Shown in pieces: positions 2,709 through 39,463 of a DNA stretch of 64,000 bases. Source of the stretch: Streptomyces sp. NBC_01276 (GTDB taxonomy: Bacteria; Actinomycetota; Actinomycetes; Streptomycetales; Streptomycetaceae); the NCBI RefSeq assembly GCF_041435355.1, contig NZ_CP108442.1, forward strand, positions 4,586,501-4,650,500, written 5' to 3'. Positions within the stretch are counted from its first letter, which is position 1. Each line of letters begins with the position of its first letter. Both the position numbers and the translations under genes were made by a program. The notes beneath the pieces were generated by a model. That model made no database searches. It was not told the origin of the DNA and saw only the letters and a program-made list of their open reading frames with translations.

Positions 2709-2853
2709 TAGCAAATCCGATCGAATCGGACTTTCTGCGCTGCCGATCAAGCTGGCCGTCCTAACTATGCCGTACCACCCGCCCTCCCCGCGACGGTACT
2801 CGCGCCCGTATATGTCCGGGGTCGGCGCACGGGCCGCCCGTACGCTGGACGGC

Positions 2854-4125
2854 ATGACCGGTACGGGGGAAGAGCGCGAGGGGACGGGCCGCGACGGGCC
2901 CTGGTGGTGGGAGCGGTGGAGGTCCGCGCTCCTGGACGTGGGGCTCGCCGCGGTGTCCGCCGCCGAGTGCGGGCTGGAGGGGCTGCCCTTCGCCCGGGAG
3001 GCGGGGATCCCGGCGGCCCTGGGCGTGTCGTTCGGAGTGGTGGTGGGGGCCACGCTGCTGCTGCGGCGGCGGTGGCCGGTGGCGGTGGTGCTCGTCGGCA
3101 TCGGCGTGTCCCCCGCCATGATGGGCTTCCTGCTCGGGGTGGTGGGCCTCTACACCCTCGCCGCCTGCGAGGTGCCCCGCCGGGTCACGGTGACGCTGGG
3201 CTCGATGTCGCTCGCCGCGACCTTCGTGGTCACGTACCTGCGCACCCGCGGCGACGTGGAGGCCGACGGGCTGCTCGTGGTGGTGCTGTCCGCGTTCATG
3301 GCGGTGGCGCTGACCGTGCCGCCGGTGCTGCTCGGGCTGTACGTGGGGGCCCGGCGGCGGCTGATGGAGAGCCTCCAGGAGCGCGCCGACTCCCTGGAAC
3401 GGGAGCTGTCGCTGCTGGCCGACCGGGCCGAGGAGCGGGCCGAGTGGGCCCGTACGGAGGAGCGCACGCGGATCGCGCGCGAGATGCACGACGTCGTCGC
3501 GCACCGGGTGTCGCTGATGGTGGTCCACGCGGCGGCGCTCCAGGCGGTGGCCGAGAAGGACCCCGGCAAGGCCGTGAAGAACGCCGCGCTGGTCGGCGAC
3601 ATGGGCCGGCAGGCCCTCACCGAGCTGCGCGAGATGCTCGGCGTGCTGCGGGCCGGGTCGCCGGGGCCCGGGCCCCGGCCGGCGGTCCGCGGGCACGCCG
3701 CGCAGGCGGCGCCGGCGCTCGCGGTCGAGGACGGGCCCTGCCTCGCCGAGCTGGAGGCGCTGGTCGGACAGTCCCGGGCTGCGGGGATGAACGTCGAGAT
3801 GGTCGTGCACGGCGAGGCGGAGCGGTACCCGGCGGAGGTGGAGCAGACCGCCTACCGGGTGGTGCAGGAGGCGCTGACCAACTGCCACAAGCATGCTCCG
3901 GGCGCGCGGGTCGTCGTACGGCTCGCGCACCGGGAGGGCGAGGTCGCCATGCAGGTCCAGAACGGGCCCTGCGGGGCGGACGGGGTCGAGCCCGGTCTGC
4001 CCAGCGGGGGCAACGGCCTGGTCGGGATGCGGGAGCGGGTGCTCGGGCTCGGCGGGGTGTTCGTGTCCGGGCCGACGGACGAGGGCGGCTTCAAGGTCTC
4101 CGCCGTCCTGCCGGCCTCCCGCTAG
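2854..4125 (+). CDS. NarL-type sensor histidine kinase (orphan)
   Basis: Membrane-bound sensor kinase. The roughly 170-residue N-terminal half is hydrophobic with about five membrane spans and little extracellular loop. A HisKA_3 dimerisation domain follows, with the phospho-acceptor His212 in REMHDVVAHR, and then a GHKL ATPase with N-box EALTNCHKHAPGA (about 340-352) and G-box GGNGLVGMRERV. The ATG at 2854 (423 aa) is preferred to an upstream ATG at 2767, because the extra 29 residues look like translated leader. No LuxR/NarL response regulator lies next to it: upstream is a tRNA and downstream a convergent SUKH gene. Its partner must be encoded elsewhere and its signal is unknown. Confidence 0.88.
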   Translation: MTGTGEEREGTGRDGPWWWERWRSALLDVGLAAVSAAECGLEGLPFAREAGIPAALGVSFGVVVGATLLLRRRWPVAVVLVGIGVSPAMMGFLLGVVGLYTLAACEVPRRVTVTLGSMSLAATFVVTYLRTRGDVEADGLLVVVLSAFMAVALTVPPVLLGLYVGARRRLMESLQERADSLERELSLLADRAEERAEWARTEERTRIAREMHDVVAHRVSLMVVHAAALQAVAEKDPGKAVKNAALVGDMGRQALTELREMLGVLRAGSPGPGPRPAVRGHAAQAAPALAVEDGPCLAELEALVGQSRAAGMNVEMVVHGEAERYPAEVEQTAYRVVQEALTNCHKHAPGARVVVRLAHREGEVAMQVQNGPCGADGVEPGLPSGGNGLVGMRERVLGLGGVFVSGPTDEGGFKVSAVLPASR

Positions 4126-4212: not shown

Positions 4213-4725
4213 TCAGGGGCCCGTGGTCAGGCGGGCCGGCTGGAGGCCGGTCAGCAGGAGGGTGAGGGCCTCGTCGAGGCCGGAGCCCAGGTACCAGTCG
4301 CCGGTGTGGTCGATCCCGTAGACCCGGCCCTCGCGGTCGATGGCCAGGTGGGAGCCGCCGTCGGCGTCGGTGCCCAGCGGGCAGAGCTGGGTGGACAGGG
4401 CCCGTCCCAGGTCGGCGAAGGTACGGGCCAGGTGCAGGCCGGACAGCGGGTCGATGCGCAGCGTGGCGGGCGCTATCTGCCGGCCCGGCCCGGGGGCGGT
4501 CACCCGCAGTCCGCCGAACTCGGCCCAGGCCTCCACGGCCGCCGGGAAGACGTTGTGCCGGTGCCCGGCGGGCGTGGTGTGGTCGCGCAGCGCGTCGGCC
4601 CAGTACTCGGCCTGCTTGATGTCCCAGCGGCCGGGTTCCCATCCGGCGGTGCGCAGCGCTGAGTCCACGGGGCCCGGGAACCGGGTCGCCGAGGAGCGGT
4701 CGTAGGAGGCGGAGGAGGCGGTCAT
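4213..4725 (-). CDS. SUKH-3 family immunity-like protein
   Basis: A 170-residue soluble protein with the SUKH-3 pattern: a W-x(6)-W region (GWEPGRWDIKQAEYWADAL), a central FPAAVEAWAEFGGLRV strand-helix block, a LCPLGTDADGGSHLAIDREGRVYGIDHTGDWYLGSGLDEAL segment and a short hydrophobic end. SUKH domains are known antagonists of nuclease and deaminase toxins in bacterial conflict systems. It lies 5 bases after the YwqJ-like deaminase gene on the same strand, so the two form a candidate enzyme/immunity operon. The start is ATG 4725. The family call rests on pattern recognition; whether it binds its neighbour is inference. Confidence 0.8.
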   Translation of the reverse strand: MTASSASYDRSSATRFPGPVDSALRTAGWEPGRWDIKQAEYWADALRDHTTPAGHRHNVFPAAVEAWAEFGGLRVTAPGPGRQIAPATLRIDPLSGLHLARTFADLGRALSTQLCPLGTDADGGSHLAIDREGRVYGIDHTGDWYLGSGLDEALTLLLTGLQPARLTTGP

Positions 4726-4730
4726 GGCGG

Positions 4731-5279
4731 CTACTCGGGGTGGGTGAGGTCGACGGGGCGTACGCCGAAGTGGGTGAGGAGCGCGTCGCAGGAGCGGCAG
4801 GGCGGAGCGTAGCTGCCGTGCAGCGGGTCGCCGTCCTCGCGGATGCGGCGGGCGGTGATCCGGGAGTGCTTCAGGGAACGCCGGGCCTCGCTCGCCGTGA
4901 GCGGCTTGCGGGAGGCGCGCCGGCTGCGGGCGCCCTCGACGGCCGCGAGGTGGCGGGAGAGCAGGATCGCCTCCGGACAGCGGCCGGTGAAGCGCTCCCG
5001 CTGGCCGCTGGTGAGGGTGTCGAGGAAGTCCTGGACCAGCGGGTGCAGCACCGGCGGCCGGTCGCCCTTGCCCGCGGTCCCGGTCAGGGTCTCCCCGCGG
5101 ACCGAGAGCGCGGCGGCGACGGTGGGCAGGATGCCGTCGCGGCGGAAGCGCAGCACGGGCGGCGGGGTGGGGCCGTCGGTGCTGCTCCAGCGCAGGCGGG
5201 GGTCGCCGGCGGGGCCGGCCTCCGCCGCTTCCGCGCGGTCCGTGCGGCTCGCCAGGTTTTGCGTCGTCGCCGTCTGCAT
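4731..5279 (-). CDS. YwqJ-like putative deaminase
   Basis: A 182-residue protein with the zinc-ligand pattern of the deaminase fold: Cys101-Pro-Glu103 on the first motif helix and Cys161-x2-Cys164 (PPCRSCDALLTHFGV) on the second. These match YwqJ-related nucleic-acid/nucleotide deaminases of polymorphic toxin systems. Residues 1-40 look disordered and there is no signal peptide or export domain, so it should act in the cytosol. ATG 5279 is chosen because GGAGGGAAG precedes it at good spacing; the longer reading from 5465 has no such support. It is transcribed with the downstream SUKH-3 gene. The substrate is unknown, and the presence of all motif residues suggests it is catalytically competent. 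Confidence 0.75.
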   Translation of the reverse strand: MQTATTQNLASRTDRAEAAEAGPAGDPRLRWSSTDGPTPPPVLRFRRDGILPTVAAALSVRGETLTGTAGKGDRPPVLHPLVQDFLDTLTSGQRERFTGRCPEAILLSRHLAAVEGARSRRASRKPLTASEARRSLKHSRITARRIREDGDPLHGSYAPPCRSCDALLTHFGVRPVDLTHPE

Positions 5280-5340
5280 GGTCGCTTCTTCCCTCCCGTG
5301 ACCGCGGTGGTGGCCGCTGTTGCGCACGCCCCCGTGCTGC

Positions 5341-5364
5341 GGGGACAGCCTGTCAAATGTCCCC
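5341..5364. promoter_or_regulatory. Inverted repeat in the divergent SUKH/deaminase control region
   Basis: GGGGACA (5341-5347) and TGTCCCC (5358-5364) form 7-bp arms around a 10-base spacer, 62 bases upstream of the YwqJ-like start. A second perfect palindrome, CGAATATTCG, lies at 5384-5393 in an AT-rich pocket. Either could be an operator shared by the divergent operons. Confidence 0.4.
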
Positions 5365-5444
5365 AGTGGTGTGGAAGCGGGGTCGAATATTCGTATCAAT
5401 TCGGATGTTCCCGCCCCACGCGCGCACGTGGGATGCATGGGCGG

Positions 5445-5472
5445 GTGACCCTCTTGCCCGAGCACATAGGCT
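5445..5472 (+). promoter_or_regulatory. Candidate promoter for the nuclease-SUKH operon
   Basis: GTGACC (5445-5450) and TAGGCT (5467-5472) are separated by 16 bases, resembling a housekeeping Streptomyces promoter. An AGGGGG ribosome-binding site precedes ATG 5510. Confidence 0.4.
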
Positions 5473-5509
5473 GTGGTGAACCAGCCAGATCCAGCAGGGG
5501 GCTACCGCC

Positions 5510-6505
5510 ATGACGACAGGTCGGCTCGGGCAGCAGGCCGCGCCACCCAACGCCGCTTACTCGGGGCAGGTCGTGCACTTCCCGGACCCGGTCCGGGCCG
5601 CCCGCCATCCCCACGGAGTGCGGATGAGCGGGGACGGTCATCCCGACTTCTCGGCGTACGCGCGCGCGGCCGTGGAGATCGCCGAGCCCCCGGAGGGCTT
5701 CGGCGTGGACGAGCTGCGGCTGACGGACTTCGTGTCCGCCAACGCCGCCATGCGGGCGTCGGGCCACGCGCTGTGGGACACAGTCGGACCGGTGGCCACG
5801 CCGCACGGCTGGACCTGGCACCACGTGGCGGGCTCCCGCCGCATGGAACTGGTCCCCGTCGAGGTCAAGGCGCTGCTGCGGCACCACGCGGGCCTGGCGA
5901 CGGCGCCCGTGGACCACGACAAGCGCGGCACCCGGCCCCTCCAGGAGGTGCGCCCCGCGCACCTCGGGCTGCCCAAGAGCCTGGTGTCCGTCGCCGAACA
6001 GCAGGTGCAGGGGGTGGAGGAGGACCTCGGGTACCGGCTGCCCGAGGCCTACCGTTCCTTCCTCAAGGCAGCGGGCGGCTGCGCGCCGGTGGGCGCGGGG
6101 CTCCTCGTGGAGCTCGGGCTGCTGGTCGACCAGCCGTTCTTCACGGTGCGCGAGGAGGCGGCGGTCAACGACCTCGTCTACGTCAACAAGTGCCTGCGGG
6201 ACCACCTGACCAAGGACTACCTGTGCGTGGCCTTCGTCCAGGGCGGGCTGCTCGCGGTGAAGGTGAAGGGCGAGGGCGTCGGCTCCGTCTGGTTCTCCCC
6301 GTACGACGACGCGCGCGACCGGGACGGCTGGTCCGTGCAGGAGCGGGTGGAGCGGTTGCTGCTTCCGTGCGGTGCCGATTTCGATGCCTTCCTCGAACGC
6401 CTGGCGGGGAACCCGCCGGAGCTGGAGACGGTGGCCGGTCTGATGGTGGACGGCGGATTCGCGCGTTCGGTTCCGGTGGCGGGTGCCGCCCCGGGTGAGG
6501 GGTGA
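5510..6505 (+). CDS. WHH-type HNH/EndoVII nuclease domain fused to SUKH-1 (SMI1/KNR4) domain
   Basis: 331 residues. Residues 45-130 resemble toxin-type HNH/EndoVII nucleases of the WHH class: a DFSAYARAAVEI start, then W103-H104-H105, MELVP at 112-116 and the later His pair 125-126 (RHHAG). After about residue 150 comes a SUKH-1/SMI1-KNR4 domain (VEEDLGYRLPEAYRSFLKAAGG ... LCVAFVQGGLLAVKVKG ... FLERL). A nuclease and its usual immunity fold are thus in one cytosolic polypeptide, so the SUKH part may restrain the nuclease in cis. The start has AGGGGG upstream. The stop lies 7 bases before the next start, giving a two-gene operon. Nuclease activity is not proven and the domain may be degenerate. 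Confidence 0.78.
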   Translation: MTTGRLGQQAAPPNAAYSGQVVHFPDPVRAARHPHGVRMSGDGHPDFSAYARAAVEIAEPPEGFGVDELRLTDFVSANAAMRASGHALWDTVGPVATPHGWTWHHVAGSRRMELVPVEVKALLRHHAGLATAPVDHDKRGTRPLQEVRPAHLGLPKSLVSVAEQQVQGVEEDLGYRLPEAYRSFLKAAGGCAPVGAGLLVELGLLVDQPFFTVREEAAVNDLVYVNKCLRDHLTKDYLCVAFVQGGLLAVKVKGEGVGSVWFSPYDDARDRDGWSVQERVERLLLPCGADFDAFLERLAGNPPELETVAGLMVDGGFARSVPVAGAAPGEG

Positions 6506-6512
6506 TCACGCC

Positions 6513-8948
6513 GTGGTGACGTTTGCACAGGCGCAGGAGCGCGCCGAGGAATGGATCAACGGGGACGTCCCCGCGTACCAGCACCGGGAGGTGCGCGTAC
6601 GGGAGTTCGGGCTGGGCTTCGTGGTGTGGGCCGAGGACCGGGCGGCCGGTCCGGTGTCCGGCGGTGGCCGGCAGCGGCTGGTCATCGCGCGGGACAGCGG
6701 TGAGGTGACCCTGTGGCCGGGCCTGCCGGTCGGCGAGGTCATCCGGCGCTACGAGGAGGAGTACGGGGCCGCTGCCGTGGCGGCCGCCGCGGAGGCCTCG
6801 GTGCCGCCGCCGCGGATCGACTCGGAGCAGACCTCCTTCATGCTGAGCCCGCCGGAGTGGCTGCAGGAGGCGGCGGACCGGGCGGGGATCCCGCCGGCGG
6901 CTCCGGCTCCGGCCCCGGCGGCTGCTTCCGGTGGCGCGGCCGAGCCGGTGCCGTTGCGGCGCGGGGGCGAGGCCCCCCACGGGCCGGCCGCCGGCGACGG
7001 GGTGCCGTCCGGGTCCACGCCGTGGGCGGGTACCGATGTGAACTCGGACGCGGACGGGGCCTCCGTGCCGCTGCCCGCCACGGTGTTCGCGCCGGCGCTG
7101 TCCGGCACCGATCTGGAGGACCGCCCGGCGGCTGCCTCCGGGGTGGCTCCGGAGGCCAAGACCACGCTGATGGCGGGCGGCAGCCAGCTGCCGAAGACCA
7201 CGGTCGCCCCGGTGCTGGGGATGCCGGACGGGGCCGGCGGGATCGCCGACGCGCCGACGAGCCGGGCCCAGGCGCCGCGGCCGGGCGGGGGTCAGCCGCA
7301 GCCGCCGCAGCCGCCGCAGCCGCCGCATCAGCCTCAGCCGCTTCAGCAGCAGCCGCCGCAGCCGCCGGGTTCGCCGGGTCAGCCGGGTTCGCCGGTGCCG
7401 GCTCCGGGGGTTCCCGGTGCTCCCGGTATGCCCGGGGCTCCTGGTGCGCCCGATGCTCCCGGGGGTGGGGCGCAGTACGCCGCGACCATGCTCGCCGGGC
7501 CCGCCGTGGTGCAGCCTCCCGGTCCCCCGGCACCGCCTGCCGCGCCCGGTGCGCCCAGTGCCCCCGGTGCGCCGGGGGCTCCCGGTGGGGGGCTCGACCA
7601 TGCGGCGACGATGCTGGCCGGGCCCGCCGTCGTGCAGCCGCCCCGGCCGCCGGGTCCGCCCGGTCCGCCGACGCCGCCGCCCGGTGCCCCCGGTGCTCCT
7701 GGTGCTCCTGGTGCTCCTGGTGCGCCCGGGGGCGGGGCGCATCATGCCGCGACCATGCTGGCGGCGCCCGGCATGGTGCCGCCGCCCGCACCGCCGGCGG
7801 CTCCCGGTGCGCCGGGTGCTCCCGGTGCTCCCGGTGGGCCCAGTGCTCCCGGTGGGGGGCTCGACCATGCGGCGACGATGCTGGCCGGGCCCGCCGTCGT
7901 GCAGCCGCCCGGCCCGCCGCCCGGTGCGCCGCGCGGTCCGGCTCCGCAGCAGCCCCCGGCCCCGTCCGGCGCGCCCACCGTCGGCCCCGGCTACCAGGCC
8001 GTGCTGCGCTACCGCGCGCCCGACGGCTCCGAGCAGCAGATCATCCGCCGCTCGGCGCCCGGCACCCCGCACCCCGAGTGGCAGATCCTCTACGAGCTCC
8101 GCGCGCTGAACGTGCCGCCCCAGCAGGTGCTGGAGCTGCACACCGAGCTGGCCTCCTGTGAGCTGCCCGGCGGCTACTGCGCCCGGATGATCCGGGAGAC
8201 CTGGCCGCAGGTGCGGATCACCAGCGTGGCCCCGTACGGGACCGACCACGCGGGACGTCAGCAGGGCATGCGGCACCTGCTCACCCATCAGGGTGAGCTG
8301 CACCAGGTGGCCGACGGGCCGGCGCGTCCCGCTCCGGTGCGGGCGCCGCTGCCGCAGGTCCCGCTGCAGCCGGCCATCCCGATGGACGCCATCGCGCAGG
8401 AACTGGCCGGTGCCTTCGGGCCGCAGGGCGTGTTCCGTTTCGACCAGCGGGCGGTGTCCCGTCAGGGCGTGCCGGAGATCGTGGCGCAGACCCTGATGTG
8501 GGCCGGTCTGCCCGTCGACTTCGGGCCGTTCTTCTGGGCGCAGGCCGTGCCGGGCCAGCCGGTGCCGACGCTGGCCGAGCTCGCGGCGCAGAGGCAGGTC
8601 CAGCCGGCGTCCGACGCGGGTTCGTACCTGGTGGTCGGCAGCGACTTCGGCAAGGCGCTCTGCGTGCAGTACGGGACCGCGCACATAGTGGCGGTCCCGG
8701 TGGAGGCCGGACCCGGAGGGGCGCCCGTACCGCCGCAGTTCGTGAATTCGAGCCTGCCGCAGTTCGCGCGTTCCCTGGCGATGCTGGGTCACATGTGGCG
8801 TCTGAGGCAGCATCTGACGCCGGAACAGGCCGGCCGCTGGACCGTCGATTTCCAGGCGAATCTGGCGGGTCTCGACAGTGCGGCGCTGGCCTCTCCGGAG
8901 AGCTGGTGGTCGGTGCTGCTGGAGCAGATGTGGGACGGGCTCCTCTGA
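6513..8948 (+). CDS. Imm35/YrhB - Pro/Gly-rich repeat linker - deaminase-like - SUKH-4 fusion protein
   Basis: 811 residues in four parts. Residues 1-85 (FAQAQERAEEWIN ... LWPGLPVGEVIRRYEEEYG) match the YrhB/Imm35 fold. Residues about 90-485 are a low-complexity linker with four copies of AATMLAGPAVVQPP or a near variant, separated by collagen-like GAPGAPG and PPG runs. Residues about 490-600 carry a deaminase-like signature: His520-Pro-Glu522 in HPEWQILYELR and Cys549-x6-Cys556 in CELPGGYC, as in XOO_2897-type deaminases. Residues about 610-800 match SUKH-4. The GTG at 6513 is chosen because GAGGGGTGAT lies upstream, 7 bases after the previous stop. The enzyme-plus-immunity combination is inference from motifs; the repeats may vary in number between strains. 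Confidence 0.75.
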   Translation: MVTFAQAQERAEEWINGDVPAYQHREVRVREFGLGFVVWAEDRAAGPVSGGGRQRLVIARDSGEVTLWPGLPVGEVIRRYEEEYGAAAVAAAAEASVPPPRIDSEQTSFMLSPPEWLQEAADRAGIPPAAPAPAPAAASGGAAEPVPLRRGGEAPHGPAAGDGVPSGSTPWAGTDVNSDADGASVPLPATVFAPALSGTDLEDRPAAASGVAPEAKTTLMAGGSQLPKTTVAPVLGMPDGAGGIADAPTSRAQAPRPGGGQPQPPQPPQPPHQPQPLQQQPPQPPGSPGQPGSPVPAPGVPGAPGMPGAPGAPDAPGGGAQYAATMLAGPAVVQPPGPPAPPAAPGAPSAPGAPGAPGGGLDHAATMLAGPAVVQPPRPPGPPGPPTPPPGAPGAPGAPGAPGAPGGGAHHAATMLAAPGMVPPPAPPAAPGAPGAPGAPGGPSAPGGGLDHAATMLAGPAVVQPPGPPPGAPRGPAPQQPPAPSGAPTVGPGYQAVLRYRAPDGSEQQIIRRSAPGTPHPEWQILYELRALNVPPQQVLELHTELASCELPGGYCARMIRETWPQVRITSVAPYGTDHAGRQQGMRHLLTHQGELHQVADGPARPAPVRAPLPQVPLQPAIPMDAIAQELAGAFGPQGVFRFDQRAVSRQGVPEIVAQTLMWAGLPVDFGPFFWAQAVPGQPVPTLAELAAQRQVQPASDAGSYLVVGSDFGKALCVQYGTAHIVAVPVEAGPGGAPVPPQFVNSSLPQFARSLAMLGHMWRLRQHLTPEQAGRWTVDFQANLAGLDSAALASPESWWSVLLEQMWDGLL
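7470..7912 (+). repeat. Imperfect protein-coding repeats in the SUKH-4 fusion gene
   Basis: Four copies of a block encoding AATMLAGPAVVQPP (or AATMLAAPGMVPPP) begin near 7478, 7601, 7748 and 7870. Between them are 9-base GCTCCTGGT-type units (7690-7725) coding GAPGAPG. Such tracts expand and contract by slippage. Confidence 0.8.
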
Positions 8949-9071
8949 TCGGATGATCGGATGTGCGGCCGGGTCGGGACCTTCGAACGGGGTCCCGGCC
9001 CGGCCATTCCGGCTTCTGACACCAAATGACGCATCCTTGTCAGCAATCCCCGCGAGAGAGGCGCTTCCAGG

Positions 9072-9968
9072 ATGAGTGCACCCATGTCACCTCACGGACC
9101 CCAGGGTTTCTCGACCGTGCGAGGTCGCGGCTACCGGACCGAAGAGGTCGACCGGTACCTGGCCCGGCTGTCCGGGAGCCGGGACGAGGCGTGGGAACGG
9201 GTGGCGCGGCTGACCGTCCTGGCCAAGCGGATGGAGGCGGAGGCGGAGCGGCTGGGCGTCGTCGTCGCCTCGCTGGCCCCGCAGACGTACGACGAGCTGA
9301 GCGAGCGCGCCCGGCGGATCCTGTCGCTCGCCCAGGAGGAGGCGGAGGTCCTGCGCCGCGACGCACGGGCCGACGCGGTGGAGGCGAAGGGCGCGGCCGA
9401 GGCGCACGCCGACCGGGTGGCGGAACTGGCGCGGCACGACGCGGAGGCCGTGCGCGAGCAGACCGAGGTCCGGGCGCGGCAGGGGCTGTCGAGGGCCCAG
9501 CGGGAGGCCGACGCGATGCGGGCGGAGGCGCGGGAGGACGCGGCGGGCTGGCGGGCGGAGGCGGTGGCGGCGCTCGGGGAGATGCGTCGGCGCACGGAGG
9601 CGCTGCTCGCGGAGCGGGAGCAGGAGCACGCGGAGCGGTGGGACGCGGCCGGGCGGGAGCTGGCCGCGCGCCAGGCCGAGCTGGAGGCGCGGAGCGCTGA
9701 GCAGGAACGGCAGGCGGAGGCGCGGCTGGCGGACGCGCGGCGGGGGTTCGCGGAGGCGGAGGAGACGGCGCGGCACGGGCAGGAGGACGCGGAGGCGCGG
9801 GCCGCGGAGCTGATCGCCGAGGCGCGGGTGCGGGAGGAGCGGGTGGGGCGGGAGACGGACCGGGTCCTGCGGGAGCACGCGGAGGCGCAGGAGGAGATGC
9901 GGGCCCACATGAACCACGTGCGCTCCAGCCTGGCGGCGCTCACGGGGCGGGCGCCAGCGGAGGGGTAG
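9072..9968 (+). CDS. DivIVA-like coiled-coil protein ('cellulose-binding protein' type)
   Basis: 298 residues, almost entirely charged heptads rich in Ala, Glu and Arg after residue 35, predicting one long coiled coil. The N-terminus has a short DivIVA-like element (STVRGRGYRTEEVDRYLARL), in which the RGYxxxEVDxxL pattern is the membrane- or curvature-associated motif of DivIVA. Streptomyces homologues are often labelled cellulose-binding proteins, but related coiled-coil proteins act in the cytoskeleton at hyphal tips, and a cytoskeletal role is the better guess. There is no signal peptide or transmembrane segment. It follows the SUKH-4 gene by 123 bases and may have its own promoter. A second ATG lies 12 bases inside the chosen start. 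Confidence 0.75.
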   Translation: MSAPMSPHGPQGFSTVRGRGYRTEEVDRYLARLSGSRDEAWERVARLTVLAKRMEAEAERLGVVVASLAPQTYDELSERARRILSLAQEEAEVLRRDARADAVEAKGAAEAHADRVAELARHDAEAVREQTEVRARQGLSRAQREADAMRAEAREDAAGWRAEAVAALGEMRRRTEALLAEREQEHAERWDAAGRELAARQAELEARSAEQERQAEARLADARRGFAEAEETARHGQEDAEARAAELIAEARVREERVGRETDRVLREHAEAQEEMRAHMNHVRSSLAALTGRAPAEG

Positions 9969-10225
9969 GGGGCTTGCCGTTGCCCTGGCCGGGCGGTTGT
10001 CCGGGGGCGGGGTCGGGGGTGGCCGGGGTCGGGGCCGGGGCGGGGTGTCGTCCGGGACTGCATGATTTATGGCGCCCTGTCCGCAGCTGCGGAGTTTTTT
10101 GGGGTACCTCGCGCCAACACATCACGTTTTACGTCCCGGCCGACACCCCACCCCGTCCCCGCCCCCGGCCGGGTGCTACCCCCCTCATGAAGCCCGGCCC
10201 TCGTGGCGCATGCCGCCCCGTGGCG
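9969..10225. other. Gene-free region with a G-rich tract and a low-GC pocket
   Basis: No convincing gene in 257 bases. It starts with a G-rich tract (9970-10045) and continues with an unusually AT-rich pocket (about 10062-10135). The pocket contains the palindrome CCGCAGCTGCGG (10081-10092) followed by a T6 run. GGGGTGTCG (10042-10050) and CGACACCCC (10141-10149) bracket the pocket as a long-range inverted repeat. Confidence 0.5.
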
Positions 10226-11077
10226 TCAGAGGTGCTTCGACAGGAACGTGGCGATCAGGGGCGCGATCGTCGGGAGGTGGGTTTCCAGGGCGAAGTGGCC
10301 CGCGCCTTCGAAGACGTGGATCTCGGCGTCCGGTACGTCGCGCCGGTACGCCTCCGCTCCGGCCGGGGTGAAGAAGGGGTCGCCCGCGCCCCAGACGACC
10401 AGCAGCGGCGGGCGGGTCGTGCGCAGCCAGGTCTGCCAGTCGGGGTAGAGCGCGAAGTTGCCGGAGTAGTCGAAGGCCAGGTCGGCCTGGGCGTCGGCGC
10501 GGCCCGGCAGGCCGAGGTAGTGGAGGTCCAGGGTCCAGTTGTCCGGGGAGAGGAGGGAGCGGTCCGCGACTCCGGTCTCGTACTGGAAGCGGGTGCCCTC
10601 CTCGGTGAAGAGGCGGCGGACGCGCTCCTCGTTGCCGGGGACCTCGCGGCTGAGCCCGGCGAATCCGCGGGCCGCGTCCGAGAGCCCCTCGTCGTACGCG
10701 TTGCCGTTCTGGACGATCAGGCCCGTGACCCGTTCCGGCCGGCGGGCGGCCAGGCGCAGGCCCACGGGTGCGCCGAAGTCGAAGACGTAGAGCGCGTAGC
10801 GGTCCAGGCCGAGGGCGTCGGTGAAGCCCTCGACGACGTCCGCGAGCCGGTCGAAGGTGTACGTGAACCCGTCCGGGGCCTCGGTCCGGCCGAAGCCCGG
10901 GTAGTCGGGGGCGATCAGCCGGTACGGGGTGTCGCCGAGCGCGTCCATCAGGCGTGCGAACTGGTGGGAGGCGGTGGGGAAGCCGTGCAGGAGCAGCAGG
11001 ACGGGGGCGTCCGCGGGGCCGCTCTCGCGGTAGGCGACGGACACGCCGTCGACGTCGACGGTGCGGTGGATCGGCAT
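10226..11077 (-). CDS. Alpha/beta hydrolase with Asp nucleophile (haloalkane dehalogenase / epoxide hydrolase-like)
   Basis: A 283-residue cytosolic hydrolase. The oxyanion motif HGFPT lies near residue 33. The nucleophile elbow reads VFDFGAPVG, with Asp where esterases have Ser, as in haloalkane dehalogenases and epoxide hydrolases. The later acid lies in the WGAGDPFF strand and the catalytic His in GAGHFALE. ATG 11077 is preferred because AGGAGG lies 6 bases upstream; a GTG three bases earlier (11080) is too close to it. The gene is divergent from a CGNR zinc-finger protein, with an inverted repeat over its candidate promoter, suggesting control by that neighbour. The substrate cannot be told from sequence. 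Confidence 0.85.
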   Translation of the reverse strand: MPIHRTVDVDGVSVAYRESGPADAPVLLLLHGFPTASHQFARLMDALGDTPYRLIAPDYPGFGRTEAPDGFTYTFDRLADVVEGFTDALGLDRYALYVFDFGAPVGLRLAARRPERVTGLIVQNGNAYDEGLSDAARGFAGLSREVPGNEERVRRLFTEEGTRFQYETGVADRSLLSPDNWTLDLHYLGLPGRADAQADLAFDYSGNFALYPDWQTWLRTTRPPLLVVWGAGDPFFTPAGAEAYRRDVPDAEIHVFEGAGHFALETHLPTIAPLIATFLSKHL

Positions 11078-11103
11078 CACATGCCTCCTCGTGGCTTGGT
11101 GGC

Positions 11104-11136
11104 ATTAGTCTTGCGGAGGTCTGGCTAATGGGTCAA
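11104..11136 (-). promoter_or_regulatory. Candidate promoter and operator of the hydrolase gene
   Basis: On the minus strand, TTGACC (11136-11131) lies 18 bases before AAGACT. An inverted repeat, ATTAG (11104-11108) and CTAAT (11125-11129), overlaps the spacer and -10 region. A repressor bound here, plausibly the divergent CGNR protein, would block RNA polymerase. Confidence 0.45.
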
Positions 11137-11158
11137 GGGGGATTGGTAGAGTTAGTTC

Positions 11159-11704
11159 ATGGTTTCGTTTCCGCTTGTGGGTGAGCCCCTCGCCCTGGAC
11201 CTGCTGAACGCGGGGGAATTGCTCGACGCCCCCGTGGGCCTCGCCGCCTGGATCGGGGAGCAGGCCGGGCGGCTGGAGCCGGTCGATGAAGTGGGGGAGG
11301 CCGAGGTGTCCGCCGTGCGGGCCGTCCGGGAGGTGGCCGGGCCGGTGCTGGGCGCCGTCCGGCGGGGCGGGGCGCCGCCGGACGGGGCGCTGCGCGCGCT
11401 GAACGGCTTCCTGGCCGCGGCCCCCTCGCACACCGAGCTGGCCTGGACGGCCGGGGCCGGGCTGACGGCCGCCCCCTGCCGGACGGCGGACCCGGCGCGG
11501 CGGCTGGCCGCGGAGCTGGCGCAGGCGGTGGCGGAGCTGGCGACGGACCCGCGGGTGACGTCGGTCCGCCGGTGCGAGGCGGAGGGCTGCGTGCTGCTGT
11601 TCCTCCCCGCGCACCCGCGGCGCCGCTGGTGCGTGGCGTCGGTCTGCGGCAACCGGGCCCGGGTGGCCCGCTACTACGCCCGTCACAAGGAGGCCGGGGC
11701 GTGA
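11159..11704 (+). CDS. CGNR zinc-finger protein (ABATE domain), putative regulator
   Basis: A 181-residue protein with an N-terminal ABATE-like domain (LVGEPLALDLLNAG) and a C-terminal CGNR zinc finger: CEAEGCVLLF, then RRWCVASVCGNRARVARYYARHK. The four Cys should hold zinc, and the family is thought to bind DNA. It is divergent from the dehalogenase-like gene and probably regulates it. The ATG at 11159 has no Shine-Dalgarno site; instead TAGAGT lies 6 bases upstream, so the transcript may be leaderless. Its stop overlaps the next gene's GTG start (GTGA at 11701), implying translational coupling. Confidence 0.85.
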   Translation: MVSFPLVGEPLALDLLNAGELLDAPVGLAAWIGEQAGRLEPVDEVGEAEVSAVRAVREVAGPVLGAVRRGGAPPDGALRALNGFLAAAPSHTELAWTAGAGLTAAPCRTADPARRLAAELAQAVAELATDPRVTSVRRCEAEGCVLLFLPAHPRRRWCVASVCGNRARVARYYARHKEAGA

Positions 11705-12102
11705 GCGCCGAGTGGGAGGCGCTGGACGAGAGCCGGCGGGCGTTCATGATCAACGCGTTCGAGATCGACATCCTGCCCGGGGTCTGGGGCGACCTGGCGG
11801 AGGAGGACAAGGAGCTGCCGGTCTCCGCGCTGGCCGCGATGCTGCTCGACCTCGTCGACCGGGGCTGGGTGGAGGTGCGCCGGGTCGCGCCGTGGACCGC
11901 GCCCGACGGCACCCCCGGCTACCGGCCGGGCGAGCGGGTCCCGCGTGCGGAGCTGCCCGCGGTGCTGGCCGACCCCGACGAGTGGGAGTACCCGGCGGAC
12001 GGGGCGGAGTGGATCGGGGCGCTGACCCTGACGGAGACCCCCGAGGGATGGCGCGTCAACCGCATCGGGCCGCAGGAGGCGGGCTATCCGGCCGGTTCGT
12101 AG
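11701..12102 (+). CDS. Hypothetical protein coupled to the CGNR regulator
   Basis: A 133-residue soluble protein not recognised. It is acidic and Trp-rich, with a helical N-terminal half (EALDESRRAFMINAFEIDILPGVWGDLAEEDKELPVSALAAMLLDLVDRGWVEVRRV). The overall look is of a winged-helix-like or effector-binding module, but no specific motif supports that. GTG 11701 overlaps the upstream stop by the GTGA arrangement, so it should be co-translated with the CGNR protein and may act with it. Its 3' end overlaps the convergent membrane-protein gene by 19 bases. Confidence 0.7.
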   Translation: MSAEWEALDESRRAFMINAFEIDILPGVWGDLAEEDKELPVSALAAMLLDLVDRGWVEVRRVAPWTAPDGTPGYRPGERVPRAELPAVLADPDEWEYPADGAEWIGALTLTETPEGWRVNRIGPQEAGYPAGS

Positions 12103-12899
12103 CGGTACGGGTCGCTGCGCAGCCCGCGGGAGGTGACCACCACCGTGAACGGGGGCCGCGCCGTGGCCGGGAGCGGGGCGGTCAGGGCGCCCGTCGCGGG
12201 GTCCGGGGTGGCCGGGACGGCGGTGTCGTCCACCGTGAGGCGGGGTTCGGTGAAGCCGCCGCCCTCCACCGTGAGCAGGCCGTCGGCGGCTTCGACGTGG
12301 GTGATGACCGGGTTGGCGCGGGTGGCCATCTTGTTCACCAGGTAAGCCCCCGCCGGGGCGCCGGTCAGGGCCCAGACCTCGGACGGCAGTCGCGGGAGTC
12401 CCGCGCGCACGTCGGAGAGGAAGAACAGGACGACGTAGAGCATCGTGACGGCGCTCAGGGCCACGTACTGGAGGTCCACGAGGTCGGTGCGGCCGCTGTC
12501 GTTCGCGATCAGTTCGCGCAGCGGGCGCCGGCCGGTGGCGGTGGGCCTGGGGGCCGGCTTGGCCAGGGTGCCGCTCTCCACCCGTATCCCGACGACCGTC
12601 TTCGCCGCGATCAGGGCCACGTAGGGGCCGCCGAGCAGCGGCAGGTAGACGGAGGTCAGGGAGGACAGGGGGCCGTCCGGGCCGTGGAAGTACGCGACCC
12701 CGCCGCCCGCCGCCAGTCCGTACCCGAGGATCGCGAGCAGCAGCCAGACCAGGATCACGGTCCAGGCCAGCGCGAGGGCGGTGGAGGTGGAGAGCCGGCC
12801 GTCGCGGCCGGTCACCGTGCCGGGACGGTGGTACAGGCGCAGGCCGACGGGGCCGGCCAGCGCGGCCAGTAACGCCAGCGCGCAGAGTGCGGATGTCAT
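12084..12899 (-). CDS. Integral membrane protein with C-terminal beta-rich domain; contains a TTA codon
   Basis: 271 residues. Hydrophobic segments at about 1-20, 42-64, 78-100 and 145-165 suggest four or five membrane spans. After residue 190 comes a soluble domain (ANPVITHVEAADGLLTVEGGGFTEPRLTVDDTAVPA ... FTVVVTSRGLRSDPY) that resembles an IPT/TIG-like beta sandwich. Function unknown. ATG 12899 is chosen because GGGGGGACGAC precedes it. Codon 10 (12872-12870) is TTA, very rare in Streptomyces and read by the bldA tRNA encoded in this same window, so translation should be delayed until bldA tRNA matures. It overlaps the preceding convergent gene by 19 bases. Confidence 0.75.
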   Translation of the reverse strand: MTSALCALALLAALAGPVGLRLYHRPGTVTGRDGRLSTSTALALAWTVILVWLLLAILGYGLAAGGGVAYFHGPDGPLSSLTSVYLPLLGGPYVALIAAKTVVGIRVESGTLAKPAPRPTATGRRPLRELIANDSGRTDLVDLQYVALSAVTMLYVVLFFLSDVRAGLPRLPSEVWALTGAPAGAYLVNKMATRANPVITHVEAADGLLTVEGGGFTEPRLTVDDTAVPATPDPATGALTAPLPATARPPFTVVVTSRGLRSDPYRYEPAG

Positions 12900-12974
12900 G
12901 TCGTCCCCCCGGGTGCGGTCCAGGGGAAGAGGGTCACCCAATGGGTCCGGGCATGACAAGTCTGCCGGTGGCGG

Positions 12975-14735
12975 CTACTCCCCTTCCGGCAGCACCGGGA
13001 ACCGTCGCGGCGCGACGAGCAGCAGCACCAGCAGGGCGGCCGCGCCCGCGGCCGTCGCGCCCAGGAAGATGTGGTCCACGGCCGCCGCCACCGCCGAGCG
13101 CAGGTGGTCCGAGGCGGCCGGGGTCAGGGAGCCCGGCTCGGCCAGGGCCCGCGACACGTCGTCGAGCCGCTCCGGGGACCCCGACGCCGGGGAGTCCGCC
13201 AGCCGGGCGGCGACGGTCGCGTTGGCCACCGCCCCCAGCAGCGCGGCTCCCACGCTCTGCCCCACGGTGCGGCAGAAGAGCACGGAGGCCGTCGTGGTGC
13301 CCCGCTCGGCCCAGCCCACCGTGGACTGCACGCCGACGATCAGCGGCAGCTGGAACAGCCCGAGGGCGGCGCCCAGCAGCAGCATGACGAGCGCGGGCTG
13401 CCACGGCCGGGCGGGATACGGGAGCAGGGTGAAGGCGAACAGCACGACCGTCGCGAGGGACATGCCGAGGACGGCGGTGTCGCGGAAGCCGATGCGCCGG
13501 TAGACGTGCTGGCACAGGGCGGCCGACAGGGGCCAGCTCAGGGTCATCAGGGCCGTCACGAAGCCGGCCCCCACCGGCCCGAGGCCGAGCACGGACTGCG
13601 CGTAGGTCGGCATGAACACCATCGGGGCGACCATCAGCAGCCCCAGGGCGCCGAGCGCCAGGTTGACGGCGGCGATGGTGCGCCGGCGCCACACCCAGCC
13701 CGGCAGGATCGGCAGGGCCGCCCGCCGCTCGATCCGGACCACCACGGCGGCCAGGACCGCGCTCGCGCCGAGCAGCCCCAGCGAGGGCGCCGACAGCCAG
13801 GGCCAGGCGACCCCGCCCTGCACCAGTGCGAAGAGCAGCAGCCCGCCGCAGGCGAAGACGCCGAGGGCCCCGGCCCAGTCGACCGGGCCCCGGCGGCCGG
13901 GGGAGCGTAGGGGCTCCACGAGGTGGCGGGCGGTCAGCCACAGGGCCAGTCCGGCGAGCGGCACGTTGATCAGGAAGGTCCAGCGCCAGCCCGCGCAGGC
14001 GGCGAGCAGACCGCCGAGGGCCGGGCCGATCAGGGAGGAACTCGCCCACACGGTGGTCATCCGGGCCTGTATGCGCGGGCGGTCCCGGAGCGGATAGAGG
14101 TCGGCGGCCAGGGTCTGCACGGTGCTCTGCAGGGCCCCGCCGCCCAGCCCCTGGACGATCCGGAAGGCGATCAGCGCGGCCATGTTCCAGGCGGACGCGC
14201 ACAGTACGGAGCCGAGGAGGAACAGGGCGGTGCCGAAGAGGAGGACGGGCTTGCGGCCGAGGGTGTCGCTGAGCCTGCCGTAGACGGGGAGGGTGACGGT
14301 GACGGCGAGGAGGTAGCCGGAGAAGAGCCAGGTGAAGACCGAGAACCCGCCGAGGTCCCCGACGATCTGGGGGACGGCGGTGGAGACGATCGTGCTGTCG
14401 AGGGCGACCAGGGCCATGTTCAGCATCAGCGCGACCACGACGGCGGTGGGCGGGCGCCTTCGCACGCCGTCCGCCGCGGGAGCGGCCCCGGGACCGGTCG
14501 CGGCGGGAGGTGCCCCGGGACCGTCCGCCGCTGGAGGTGCCCCGGGACCGGTCCCGGTGTGAAGGGCCCCGGCGGGAGCGGCCGTCGCATTGGCCGGAAT
14601 TCTGCCCGCCGACGGATCCCCGGCCGCTGCCGGCGCCCCCCGCCCGGGGGCGTCCGCCCCGCCCGTCCCTGACCCCACCCTGTCCCCCTCGTCCGCGGAC
14701 GGACACCATCTCACCGGGGGTGCGGACGGCGACAT
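12975..14735 (-). CDS. MFS drug-efflux-type transporter (DHA2, EmrB/QacA-like)
   Basis: A 14-span proton-coupled exporter of the major facilitator superfamily. ALDSTIVSTAVPQI (motif D1) sits at the end of span 1, GRLSDTLGRKPVL is the loop 2-3 motif A, and SSLIGPALGG is motif C in span 5. The N-terminal 95 residues are a low-complexity, Ala/Pro/Gly-rich extension with three PGAPPAADG-like repeats and are probably disordered. The start is uncertain: ATG 14735 gives the longest form (586 aa), but the in-frame GTG at 14678 has a better ribosome-binding site (GAGGGGG). It is divergent from the ABC operon, with palindromes between them. The substrate is unknown. Confidence 0.85.
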   Translation of the reverse strand: MSPSAPPVRWCPSADEGDRVGSGTGGADAPGRGAPAAAGDPSAGRIPANATAAPAGALHTGTGPGAPPAADGPGAPPAATGPGAAPAADGVRRRPPTAVVVALMLNMALVALDSTIVSTAVPQIVGDLGGFSVFTWLFSGYLLAVTVTLPVYGRLSDTLGRKPVLLFGTALFLLGSVLCASAWNMAALIAFRIVQGLGGGALQSTVQTLAADLYPLRDRPRIQARMTTVWASSSLIGPALGGLLAACAGWRWTFLINVPLAGLALWLTARHLVEPLRSPGRRGPVDWAGALGVFACGGLLLFALVQGGVAWPWLSAPSLGLLGASAVLAAVVVRIERRAALPILPGWVWRRRTIAAVNLALGALGLLMVAPMVFMPTYAQSVLGLGPVGAGFVTALMTLSWPLSAALCQHVYRRIGFRDTAVLGMSLATVVLFAFTLLPYPARPWQPALVMLLLGAALGLFQLPLIVGVQSTVGWAERGTTTASVLFCRTVGQSVGAALLGAVANATVAARLADSPASGSPERLDDVSRALAEPGSLTPAASDHLRSAVAAAVDHIFLGATAAGAAALLVLLLVAPRRFPVLPEGE

Positions 14736-14762
14736 CCCCTACCCCGGATCGCCCGAAGGGTG

Positions 14763-14834
14763 GACATCCCCTAGGGGTGACTCCCCACTAGGGCGCAGGG
14801 GACTTTCGTCCCGGCGGATGAGGCCGAAGGTCCT
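14763..14834. promoter_or_regulatory. Palindrome-rich control region between MFS and ABC operons
   Basis: Three elements are visible. CCCTAG (14769-14774) and CTAGGG (14788-14793) form an inverted repeat. GGGACTTTCGTCCC (14799-14812) is a near-palindrome resembling the DevR/DosR dormancy box. AGGCCGAAGGTCCT (14821-14834) looks like a weaker second copy. GACATCCCCTA also occurs twice, 32 bases apart (14731 and 14763). GGGGTTAACCCC lies at 14877-14888. Confidence 0.5.
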
Positions 14835-14997
14835 CCGGCGTCCTTAACTGGTTCCTACGGGCGGGGACGTGGGGGTGGGGTTAACCCCCGGGTGGATACG
14901 GCGAAGGGCACCAGGGCGCCGGACACCCCCCGCACCGCAGACTTCACGGCGGCGACGCATTCACGCGCGCAGACGAAACACAACGGGGGAGAACACC

Positions 14998-15786
14998 GTG
15001 ACAACGGCGATGACCGAAACCAGGCACGGAGGGACCGGCGGCCAGAGCTCCGTCGCGGCCCGGGCGCGCGAGGTCGTCAAGGCCTACGGCTCCGGCGAGA
15101 CCCGCGTCGTCGCCCTGAACGCCGTCGACGTGGACATCCACCGCGGCCAGTTCACCGCGATCATGGGCCCCTCGGGCTCGGGCAAGTCCACGCTGATGCA
15201 CTGCCTGGCCGGGCTGGACACGGTCACGAGCGGACGGATCGAGCTCGACGGCACCGAGATCACCGGCCTGAAGGACAAGAAGCTCACCCAGCTCCGCCGC
15301 GACAAGATCGGGTTCATCTTCCAGGCCTTCAACCTGCTCCCGACCCTGAACGCCCTGGAGAACATCACCCTCCCCATGGACATCGCGGGCCGCAAGCCCG
15401 AGCCGCAGTGGCTGGAGCGGGTCGTCGAGACCGTCGGACTCGCCGGCCGCCTCAAGCACCGCCCGACCGAGCTCTCCGGCGGCCAGCAGCAGCGCGTGGC
15501 GGTCGCCCGCGCCCTGGCGGCCCGTCCCGCGATCATCTTCGGCGACGAGCCGACCGGAAACCTGGACTCCAGGGCCGGCGCCGAGGTCCTCGGCTTCCTG
15601 CGCCGGTCGGTGGACGAGCTCGGCCAGACCATCGTGATGGTCACCCACGACCCGGTCGCCGCCTCCTACGCGGACCGCGTCATCTTCCTGGCGGACGGCA
15701 GCATCGTCGACGAGATGTACGCCCCCACCGCCGAGCAGGTCCTCGACCGCATGAAGGACTTCGACGCGCGCGGGCGGACCTCGTGA
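14998..15786 (+). CDS. ABC transporter ATP-binding protein (MacB/LolD-type), system A
   Basis: 262 residues. Walker A GPSGSGKST lies at 57-65, the signature LSGGQQQR near 159 and Walker B IIFGDEPTGNLD near 179, with the HDP switch in VTHDPVAAS. It belongs to the MacB/LolD subfamily, which drives FtsX-like permeases by mechanotransmission rather than classical uptake. GTG 14998 is preferred, with GGGGGAGAA just upstream. Its TGA overlaps the permease GTG (GTGA), so the two are translationally coupled. The C-terminal LDRMKDFDARGRTS is nearly identical to that of the second ATPase at 48330-49106, showing paralogy. The cargo or wall process served is unknown. Confidence 0.93.
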   Translation: MTTAMTETRHGGTGGQSSVAARAREVVKAYGSGETRVVALNAVDVDIHRGQFTAIMGPSGSGKSTLMHCLAGLDTVTSGRIELDGTEITGLKDKKLTQLRRDKIGFIFQAFNLLPTLNALENITLPMDIAGRKPEPQWLERVVETVGLAGRLKHRPTELSGGQQQRVAVARALAARPAIIFGDEPTGNLDSRAGAEVLGFLRRSVDELGQTIVMVTHDPVAASYADRVIFLADGSIVDEMYAPTAEQVLDRMKDFDARGRTS

Positions 15787-18488: not shown

Positions 18489-19955
18489 TCAGGCCACCCG
18501 CTGGAGCAGGACGACCCCGCCCGCCTCGCCCACCAGGACGAACCGCGATCCCGGATGCAGCCGGGCGGCGTAGTCGACCGGGTTCTGCCCGGCCCAGCCG
18601 GAGGAGTTGTCGAAGGTCAGGTAGGCCGGGAGCACCCCCCGGGTGTTGCCGATCCAGAAGACCCGGCAGCGCGAGGTCAGCCGGGTCAGCACACCGATGT
18701 CGGCCTCCACCCCCACCCCGTCCGGGATCCGCGCGAGCAGCTTCTCCACGGCGGCCACCCGGGCGGGCTTGCGGTAGGTCTCCCGCTCCCCGAGCCGGGC
18801 CAGCGGCAGGCTGGTCGCGCTCAGCGCGAGGGCCGCGGCGAGCACGGCGGCGGGCAGCTGGTGGGCGTACGAGCGCAGCCACGGCCGCCGGTCGCGCCGT
18901 ACGGTGTCGAGCGCGTCGGCCAGGGCGAGGAAGACGACCGGCATCAGGACGGCGCTGTAGTGGAAGTCGGTGGACCAGAAGTACGGGTCGCTCGACAGGA
19001 ACCGCCAGCCGAGGGTGGGCGCGGCCACCAGCAGCAGCGGGGAGCGCAGCGCCAGCAGCCCGGTGGTGGGCACCAGCAGCCAGGCGAGGGTGGCGAGCTT
19101 CGTGCCGTACCCCTGGAAGGGGCCGCCGCCCTTGCCCATCTTCTCCCAGTAGGTGTAGCCGTCCAGGGCGAAGCCGGGTATCACCACGGTGAAGAGCAGT
19201 ACGGCGGTCACCACCCCGGCCAGCGCGACGGCGAGCGCGAGCCGGGCTGCCCGCCGGTCCGCGCTCCGGGCCCGCAGGGCGATCACCAGGGCCAGCACCG
19301 CCACGGTGGCCCCGAGGTCCTCCTTGACCAGCAGCAGCGGTAGCGCCCAGAGGAGCGCGGCGCGCCACCGGCGCGCGAGCAGCGCCTCCAGCGAGAAGGC
19401 CAGCAGCGGCACCGCGAAGCAGATCTCGTGGAAGTCGAAGTCGATGGTCCGCTGGATCCCCCAGGACAGTCCGTACGCCGCCCCGACCGCGAGCCCGCGG
19501 CCCTGCCCCAGGAGGCGGACCGCGGCCCGGGTGACGGGCAGCGCGGACAGCGCGAGCAGCGCCGCCTGCACCACCAGCAGGGTGACCGGGCCCGGGAAGA
19601 CCCGGTAGAGGGGGGCGATCAGGGCGATGACGGGACTGAAGTGGTCGCCGAGGACGAGGGCCCCGGGGCCCTTCAGGTCCACCACCGGGGCCTGGAGGTG
19701 GGCGTAGGCCCTGACCGCCTGCTCGAAGATCCCCAGGTCCCAGGAGGACTCCTCCATCCGCCGGTGGCGGCAGACGGAGAGCGTCGCGTACGCCAGGAAG
19801 AGCACGCCGACGAGTGCGTACGGGGCCCGTCGCAGCGCCGCGGACGCCAGGCGGGCCCGCCCGGCGGCGGGCGGGCGGGCGTACGCCGGCGGGGAGGGCG
19901 CGGCGGGTCCGCCCGCGGGCTCCTCGGCGGTCTGGGGGCTCCCGGACGTGGACAT
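18489..19955 (-). CDS. DUF2079 multi-span membrane protein
   Basis: 488 residues. After a Pro/Ala-rich cytosolic N-terminus of about 40 residues come around ten membrane spans. An early conserved block, SSWDLGIFEQAVRAYA ... LGDHFSPVIALIAPLYRVFPGP, is characteristic of DUF2079, a family related to GT-C-fold membrane glycosyltransferases. The DLGIFEQ acidic residue sits where GT-C enzymes bind metal or lipid-phosphate sugar. The C-terminal 130 residues form a soluble domain (LLARIPDGVGVEADIGVLTRLTSR). Substrate unknown. It is convergent with the ABC operon and divergent from mfd. Confidence 0.82.
   Translation of the reverse strand: MSTSGSPQTAEEPAGGPAAPSPPAYARPPAAGRARLASAALRRAPYALVGVLFLAYATLSVCRHRRMEESSWDLGIFEQAVRAYAHLQAPVVDLKGPGALVLGDHFSPVIALIAPLYRVFPGPVTLLVVQAALLALSALPVTRAAVRLLGQGRGLAVGAAYGLSWGIQRTIDFDFHEICFAVPLLAFSLEALLARRWRAALLWALPLLLVKEDLGATVAVLALVIALRARSADRRAARLALAVALAGVVTAVLLFTVVIPGFALDGYTYWEKMGKGGGPFQGYGTKLATLAWLLVPTTGLLALRSPLLLVAAPTLGWRFLSSDPYFWSTDFHYSAVLMPVVFLALADALDTVRRDRRPWLRSYAHQLPAAVLAAALALSATSLPLARLGERETYRKPARVAAVEKLLARIPDGVGVEADIGVLTRLTSRCRVFWIGNTRGVLPAYLTFDNSSGWAGQNPVDYAARLHPGSRFVLVGEAGGVVLLQRVA

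Positions 19956-38020: not shown

Positions 38021-39463
<1,443 letters not shown>

Follow-up and report, generated by a model that had tools for sequence, protein, structure and literature searches.

Four adjacent genes of Streptomyces sp. NBC_01276, termed A to D here, combine two predicted deaminases and one predicted nuclease of bacterial toxin families with immunity-type domains of the SUKH superfamily; they lie in the window analysed, a stretch of 64,000 nucleotides (nt) of contig NZ_CP108442.1 (positions 4,586,501 to 4,650,500). In the antibiotic-producing Streptomycetaceae these toxin-family domains are found as near-universal, slowly evolving genes that keep their domain order, have intact and constrained active sites, and are homologous to the tips of toxins that have separate SUKH genes. 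Judged by its sequence, the cluster is real, well conserved and of toxin-immunity origin, and A-D are probably resident and active; a role in defence is not supported. The reading tentatively favoured here is that toxin-immunity cassettes were domesticated as resident, self-restrained and probably active intracellular enzymes. If the enzymes are active, they would show one way in which weapons can turn into cell machinery, and would be a strong candidate for a self-directed nucleic-acid process in Streptomyces.

Domain architecture of the cluster

Gene B (4731-5279, minus strand) encodes a YwqJ-like deaminase of 182 residues (Pfam PF14431, E=1.2e-27), in which the motifs C-P-E (4971-4979) and PCRSC (4788-4799) can be read directly; it adjoins gene A (4213-4725) directly upstream on the same strand, enzyme first and 5 nt apart. 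Gene A encodes a SUKH-3 immunity-type protein on its own, 170 residues long (domain at about 4246-4680; PF14433, E=1.7e-54). Gene C (5510-6505, plus strand; 331 residues) joins a WHH nuclease domain (about 5795-5905; PF14414, E=9.7e-13, with a further match to Colicin-DNase at 1.4e-07) to a SUKH-1 (SMI1_KNR4) domain (about 5993-6397; PF09346, E=9.1e-12), and direct reading shows the motifs WHH (5816-5824) and LLRHHAG. Gene D (6516-8948, plus strand) fuses an XOO_2897-like deaminase domain (7983-8285; PF14440, E=1.1e-35) to a SUKH-4 domain (8394-8927; PF14435, E=1.1e-47); its deaminase motifs are H-P-E (8070-8078) and C-x6-C (8157-8180), not CxxC. These domains are preceded by an N-terminal domain of about 85 residues (6516-6770) and by a linker (6798-7970) that on reading the sequence is rich in proline, glycine and alanine, with repeated AATMLAGP-type motifs; linker length is estimated at 361-725 residues across 26 proteins, that of the window included. 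The start of D is most likely the GTG at 6516, and the stop codon of C ends 10 nt upstream; 6483 is the less likely start, since the C-D gap in relatives fits 6516: in all 40 loci it is estimated at 4-50 nt, with a median of 10, the start of D being placed by alignment at a position that holds no start codon in seven of the 40.

In all three pairs the toxin comes ahead of its immunity partner: B before A, WHH before SUKH-1 and deaminase before SUKH-4. A preliminary description of this stretch had named these same SUKH, deaminase and nuclease domains, and all were found in place with significant Pfam matches; its proposal that enzyme and immunity fold share one polypeptide holds for C and D only, the YwqJ enzyme B being separate from the SUKH-3 protein A. 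The same description had read D as a YrhB/Imm35-deaminase-SUKH-4 fusion. The deaminase and SUKH-4 parts stand, and the Imm35 label for the N-terminus is weakly supported: no Pfam match appeared up to E=10 in D, or up to E=1 in five related proteins, and profile-profile comparison with Imm35 (PF15567; hhalign) gave a probability of 81% and an E-value of 1.3e-05. The D-type N-domain recurs after SUKH-3 in one open reading frame at two other loci (L139 and L141) and alone in a third (L153), and is thus a mobile domain of the same milieu. Elsewhere in the same genome there are two Imm35 matches (G000:C2:433901-434173 and G000:C1:4944436-4944678), the second below the family cut-off. NCBIfam contained no credible model for any of A-D, and searches of solved structures with the three profiles yielded nothing credible.

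Distribution, gene order and constraint

In a first sample, PF14440 matched in 42 of 61 genomes. Within the Streptomycetaceae, the deaminase-SUKH-4 stretch of D matches 292 of 297 genomes, 288 of them at E<1e-50 and four, all of genus g18, only at 9.7e-15 to 3.1e-12. The five genomes without a match are three of genus g15 plus G282 and G272, both of which have C and the start of D; in these two, as in G030 and G001, the N-terminal part of D is present and the contig ends inside the gene, in G010 the beginning of D gives way to a run of N, and G008 shows a fragment of D where its contig ends, so that none of these six broken copies was counted as a loss. Gene C matches 97 of 101 family genomes (orthologs in 94, and paralogs at 38-40% identity in three g18 genomes), the misses being three g15 genomes and G097 of g18. 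Both A and B match 101 of 101 sampled Streptomycetaceae genomes, g15 and g18 included. The pair C-D is found in 15 of 17 genera; C and D are missing jointly from the same two genera, g15 and g18, while B-A remains, and the four genes are therefore two units, B-A and C-D. At the class level, C was detected in 28 of 28 same-genus genomes versus four of 268 others, weakly, and D in 28 of 28 versus five of 268, four of these being full-length relatives at 36-39% identity. No strain-to-strain exchange of C-terminal toxin domains is seen; the same domains are present family-wide (288 of 297 genomes for D and 94 of 101 for C).

The order histidine kinase gene, A, B, C, D is kept in 25 of 26 full-length same-genus loci; at L053 (G012, 8877-16146) C and D are kept, glmU, the kinase gene, A and B are missing at this place, and an MFS gene lies beside C. 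Six further loci (L057-L062) are cut by contigs. Other genera keep the order A-B-C-D in 12 of 14 loci. Eight of these are closely packed; in L114, L124 and L126 a distance of 2.2, 2.8 and 5.0 kb, respectively, separates B from C, and L125 has 2.6 kb between A and B. Of the two remaining loci, L115 is truncated by the end of its contig, and L121 has A and B about 6 kb away from C (6.3 kb for B). Among the named loci, which are the best 80 of 572 found with the patterns PHGWTWH or NKCLRDH, 79 have A, B, C and D in this order over whatever part of the cluster they cover, and the remaining one starts with C. In six g24/g27 genomes (G070, G084, G100, G104, G140, G149) B and C are separated by about 5 to 27 kb; the genes in between include, by Pfam, an epimerase, a DegT aminotransferase and a GFO/IDH oxidoreductase in L135, and by eye the other g24/g27 intervals resemble this one.

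The active-site residues are intact in the window and in the aligned relatives. Both B and D have the H/C-x-E motif and the two cysteines of the deaminase-fold zinc site, and C has the WHH, L, H and HxG motifs of an HNH/Endo VII WHH nuclease. In D, the residues H, E, C and C are invariant in 47 of 47 aligned sequences and in 65 of 65 named loci that reach the deaminase; in B, the residues C, E, C and C are invariant in 38 of 38, not counting L121, where the piece compared stops inside B, and in 79 of 79 named loci that reach this gene; and in C, W103, H104, H105, L114, H125, H126 and G128 are invariant in 41 of 41 (the aligned sets include the window each time). The motif residues W, H, H, H and G of C are kept in 80 of 80 named loci, where the search patterns partly selected for W and the first H; no such selection applies to the rest of C, to B or to D. 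The invariance sets of 112, 117 and 121 sequences mix named and unnamed loci, may share genomes, and are not independent. The catalytic glutamate of D is not a zinc ligand, and it is kept in all 47 aligned sequences.

Median identity to the window over 25 same-genus loci is highest for the D deaminase (86%), followed by C (82%), SUKH-4 (80%), the D N-domain (79%), B (73%), A (71%) and the histidine kinase (66%); the corresponding values are 85% for glmU (24 loci) and 52% for a DivIVA-like gene downstream of D (23 loci). Ratios of nonsynonymous to synonymous substitution (dN/dS), estimated with four hand-picked relatives and over 105 codons for the D deaminase, are 0.03-0.13 for this domain, 0.05-0.18 for the D N-domain, 0.07-0.26 for SUKH-4, 0.14-0.19 for C and 0.30-0.62 for the DivIVA-like gene in four pairs, and 0.18-0.22 for glmU, 0.29-0.33 for B and 0.38-0.47 for A in three pairs. 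The D deaminase has the lowest ratio in three of the four pairs; in the L048 pair, the D N-domain (0.124) falls slightly under it (0.130). The nuclease and SUKH parts of C differ little (dN 0.052 and 0.058 in L053).

Paralogs of D provide a natural control set. In proteins of D architecture and about 430-490 residues that are encoded outside the core locus (L148-L154), zinc ligands are lost in seven of seven cases; fold and fusion thus tolerate the loss, and retention of the ligands in the core D looks selected. The possibility that the catalytic residues are kept merely for folding was rejected, since paralogs of the same architecture lose them. FtsK/SpoIIIE genes are found a few kb or less from two of the dead-site fusions, L153 and L154, the second of which also has WXG100 genes nearby, and a calpain-like protease gene lies about 5 kb from a third (L152).

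Toxin relatives, proposed domestication and alternative readings

The deaminase motif of D aligns with toxin open reading frames at four loci (L063, L065, L066 and L070), all with H-E-C-C; the delivery domains are RHS and WXG100 in L063 and of WXG100 type in L065 and L066, and a separate SUKH-4 gene follows the toxin in L063 and L065. Proteins with the reverse arrangement, in which SUKH-4 precedes the deaminase within a single open frame, occur in seven of seven cases at L065-L069, L131 and L132, the motif being intact in all seven; in L065 and L069 this protein is followed by a gene with weak WD40 matches. At locus L139 of genus g18 (4700-14309), a WXG100 toxin of 2301 residues with a WHH tip at its C-terminal end is followed by a separate SUKH-1-like frame (identified by tblastn and reading only) and then by a fused WHH-SUKH-1 homolog of C; further on come a YwqJ-like frame, in which C-P-D replaces C-P-E, and SUKH-3 joined to a D-type N-domain. 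Locus L139 shows trans and cis arrangements side by side. Since the relatives are WXG100/RHS toxin tips, the origin of A-D would lie in that weaponry; the earlier view that the cluster is not a contact toxin is upheld for A-D themselves and does not extend to this ancestry.

A search of 72,556 plasmid records found four matches to the D stretch, in the deaminase part only and at 30-33% identity, and five to C, one of which spans 96% of C at 35% identity on a Streptomyces plasmid; no ortholog-like copy of C or of the D stretch occurs among these records. A layout like the reverse-order one is present on two Streptomyces plasmids, beside an integrase gene on one and conjugation genes on the other; its middle gene is annotated as WD40 in the first and as hypothetical in the second. 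On the first of these plasmids (L146, 5497-10552), a SUKH-4-annotated gene with a deaminase match, a WD40 gene, a deaminase gene and a SUKH-4 gene adjoin an integrase gene.

The proposed history starts from polymorphic-toxin cassettes, each made up of a toxin tip and the immunity gene behind it, whose domestication would date from early in the Streptomycetaceae; B-A would have stayed a two-gene enzyme-inhibitor pair, and in C and D the immunity domain would have been fused behind the enzyme. With this arrangement in cis, every enzyme would come with one inhibitor, and the loss of one gene would set no toxin free. Their anatomy and constraint suggest that the enzymes still work, normally restrained by the SUKH domain behind them, and they would act on nucleic acid or nucleotides inside the producing cell. 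The enzyme might be freed from its cis SUKH domain by a signal such as the binding of a partner, proteolytic cleavage or a change in the long linker; the long, probably disordered linker of D and its N-domain could be where this signal acts. The purpose would be physiological (stress, growth or development) and not contact killing. A bolder version, in which all three cassettes are permanent family-wide core devices, with live deaminases and a nuclease held off by SUKH (two in cis) and directed at nucleic acids of the cell itself, for instance to damage old hyphae in a programmed way or to bring about stress-induced mutagenesis, is conceivable and rather unlikely.

Several points weigh against domestication as restrained, active enzymes. 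The literature search found no expression or mutant data for A-D. AlphaFold models based on same-family alignments had a mean predicted local distance difference test (pLDDT) score of 37 for C (28 sequences) and 48 for the C-terminus of D (33 sequences); both were discarded, leaving no usable view of the SUKH domains relative to the active sites. In one of the 80 named loci, H126 in the HxG motif of C is replaced by tyrosine. The invariance of four chosen catalytic columns in each enzyme speaks for domestication, its chance being 0.010 (D), 0.0014 (B) and 0.014 (C) given shares of invariant columns of 0.32, 0.20 and 0.35, respectively; these figures, however, take the columns to be independent and leave relatedness out of account, and the one for C is based on H104, H105, H125 and G128, without H126. 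Finally, among further D-type paralogs L129 has lost its zinc ligands, but L128, L130 and L064 keep the site, and the loss is therefore not universal.

Alternatively, A-D could be housekeeping enzymes, such as a nucleotide or RNA deaminase or a structure-specific nuclease, with SUKH as scaffold or regulator and not as an off switch. Near-universal presence, strong constraint and one match each in the own genome are consistent with this alternative, as is a proposal, made in passages of Zhang et al. 2012 (PMC3482391), that SUKH proteins are versatile protein-binding modules; it is nonetheless judged unlikely, given that passages of the same source list SUKH as the immunity partner of the same deaminase and WHH families, and that B-A keeps the classical layout of a toxin-immunity pair.

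A resident anti-phage device acting by abortive infection, in which phage proteins release the enzyme from SUKH, is improbable. Abortive systems are generally known to use self-restrained nuclease and deaminase chemistry; however, no PADLOC model matched any of six proteins, and the deaminase-SUKH-4 stretch of D had no match in 50,697 phage records, a search that covered this stretch and not A, B or C. Matches to PHROGs were weak only, the best at 2.2e-04 (SUKH-1 part of C). Defence genes are usually patchy in their distribution; this device is not, being found in 15 of 17 genera, and its near-universal inheritance fits physiology better than phage defence. Of the resident defence or regulatory device that the preliminary description had suggested, the defence half is not supported by these searches or by the near-universal presence in one family; a regulatory or physiological role fits the distribution better.

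Equally improbable is that A-D serve purely for immunity or as decoys when WHH, YwqJ and XOO_2897 toxins arrive from outside, in which case the enzyme domain would be no more than a bait or a fold remnant. Fused SUKH-4-deaminase proteins do adjoin WXG100 XOO_2897 toxins that have their own SUKH-4, and some dead-site D-like paralogs lie near FtsK/WXG100 genes; yet the catalytic glutamate, needless for a decoy, is invariant in D and B, and immunity genes as generally known vary quickly, whereas A-D do not. That the genes encode exported toxins with an unrecognised delivery signal is very unlikely, even though their relatives are WXG100/RHS toxin tips: in agreement with the first account, Pfam finds no export or delivery domain (WXG100, RHS and the like) in A-D, in a search that covered Pfam domains and not signal peptides, and C and D carry along an immunity domain that is expected to disarm a toxin on arrival.

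Chromosomal setting and known systems

The cluster lies in conserved chromosome, as first described: Pfam recognises glmU (1043-2491), mfd (about 19428-23672) and enolase (38177-39463) in the window, the cluster is present in relatives, and no mobile-element gene occurs among the Pfam-scanned neighbours, although no search was aimed specifically at mobile remnants. The nearest named loci come from species of Streptomyces, for example S. avidinii and S. virginiae. In GC content the cluster matches its surroundings, apart from a single peak (0.81 at 7001-8000) that falls on the D linker, and the sole tRNA gene in the first 20 kb is tRNA-Gln (2636-2708). A ParE-type toxin and a Phd/YefM-type antitoxin form a pair at 41685-42376.

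Following glmU, the gene order is histidine kinase, A, B, C, D and the DivIVA-like gene. The orphan-type kinase gene (2767-4125, plus strand; HisKA_3, E=2.5e-18) is a conserved neighbour beside A-B. The fast-evolving DivIVA-like coiled-coil gene after D (9072-9968, plus strand; Pfam DivIVA, E=1.7e-04, below the cut-off) comes after D and on its strand in 39 of 40 loci, 32 of which have it no more than 300 nt away, and thus goes with the C-D unit. From gene order rather than sequence comparison, we take the kinase gene to be probably the ortholog of SCO3119 and the DivIVA-like gene to be likely that of SCO3114. In S. coelicolor the SCO3114-mCherry signal is diffuse (passages of PMC2680258); SCO3119 is listed as an orphan kinase (passages of PMC9739842) and named as a possible AtrA target (passages of PMC13170358). 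Both neighbours are conserved; nothing shows joint action with C-D.

The divergent intergenic region between B and C (5280-5509) contains the conserved CATAGGCTGT at 5465-5474. With motifs picked by eye from the same 26 regions in which they were counted (the window and 25 relatives), C[AT]TAGGCTGT is present in 24 of 26 versus 0.03 expected in shuffles, and the inverted repeat GTCAC-N6-GTGAC in 16 of 26 versus about 0.01 expected, the window being without it; in 12 of 26 the repeat is followed by N5 and a GTCAC-like half site. These motifs look like a putative operator of some regulator; no known regulator was matched, and no link to a known regulon is claimed.

Literature searches (SUKH with deaminase, the family names, SCO3113-SCO3122) found no description of this cluster, and an earlier mention in the founding papers of 2011 is possible; several known systems invite comparison. 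Type II toxin-antitoxin pairs likewise consist of a resident enzyme and a neighbouring inhibitor, and the B-A layout is similar; their folds are, as generally known, different, and a further difference is that C and D have the inhibitor domain joined to the enzyme. The Streptomyces umbrella toxin UmbC1 is, in passages of PMC11062931, a polymorphic toxin whose deaminase domain mutates DNA; unlike A-D, it is part of a secreted particle and has its immunity protein UmbD1 (Imm1 family) in trans. The WXG100/RHS toxins with XOO_2897 tips at L063, L065, L066 and L070 share the H-x-E and C..C motif of D, but have delivery domains (in the three scanned, L063, L065 and L066) and immunity in trans, and a similar module occurs on plasmids. 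Close counterparts are also the polymorphic toxin-immunity cassettes with SUKH, which according to passages of Zhang et al. 2012 (PMC3482391) have the same enzyme families (Tox-WHH, YwqJ and XOO2897 deaminases), the same immunity superfamily and the same order, and in which SUKH occasionally fuses to toxins, for example Tox-GHH. In contrast to these polymorphic and patchy cassettes, A-D are without Pfam secretion or repeat domains, C and D are fused in cis, and the genes are core and slowly evolving.

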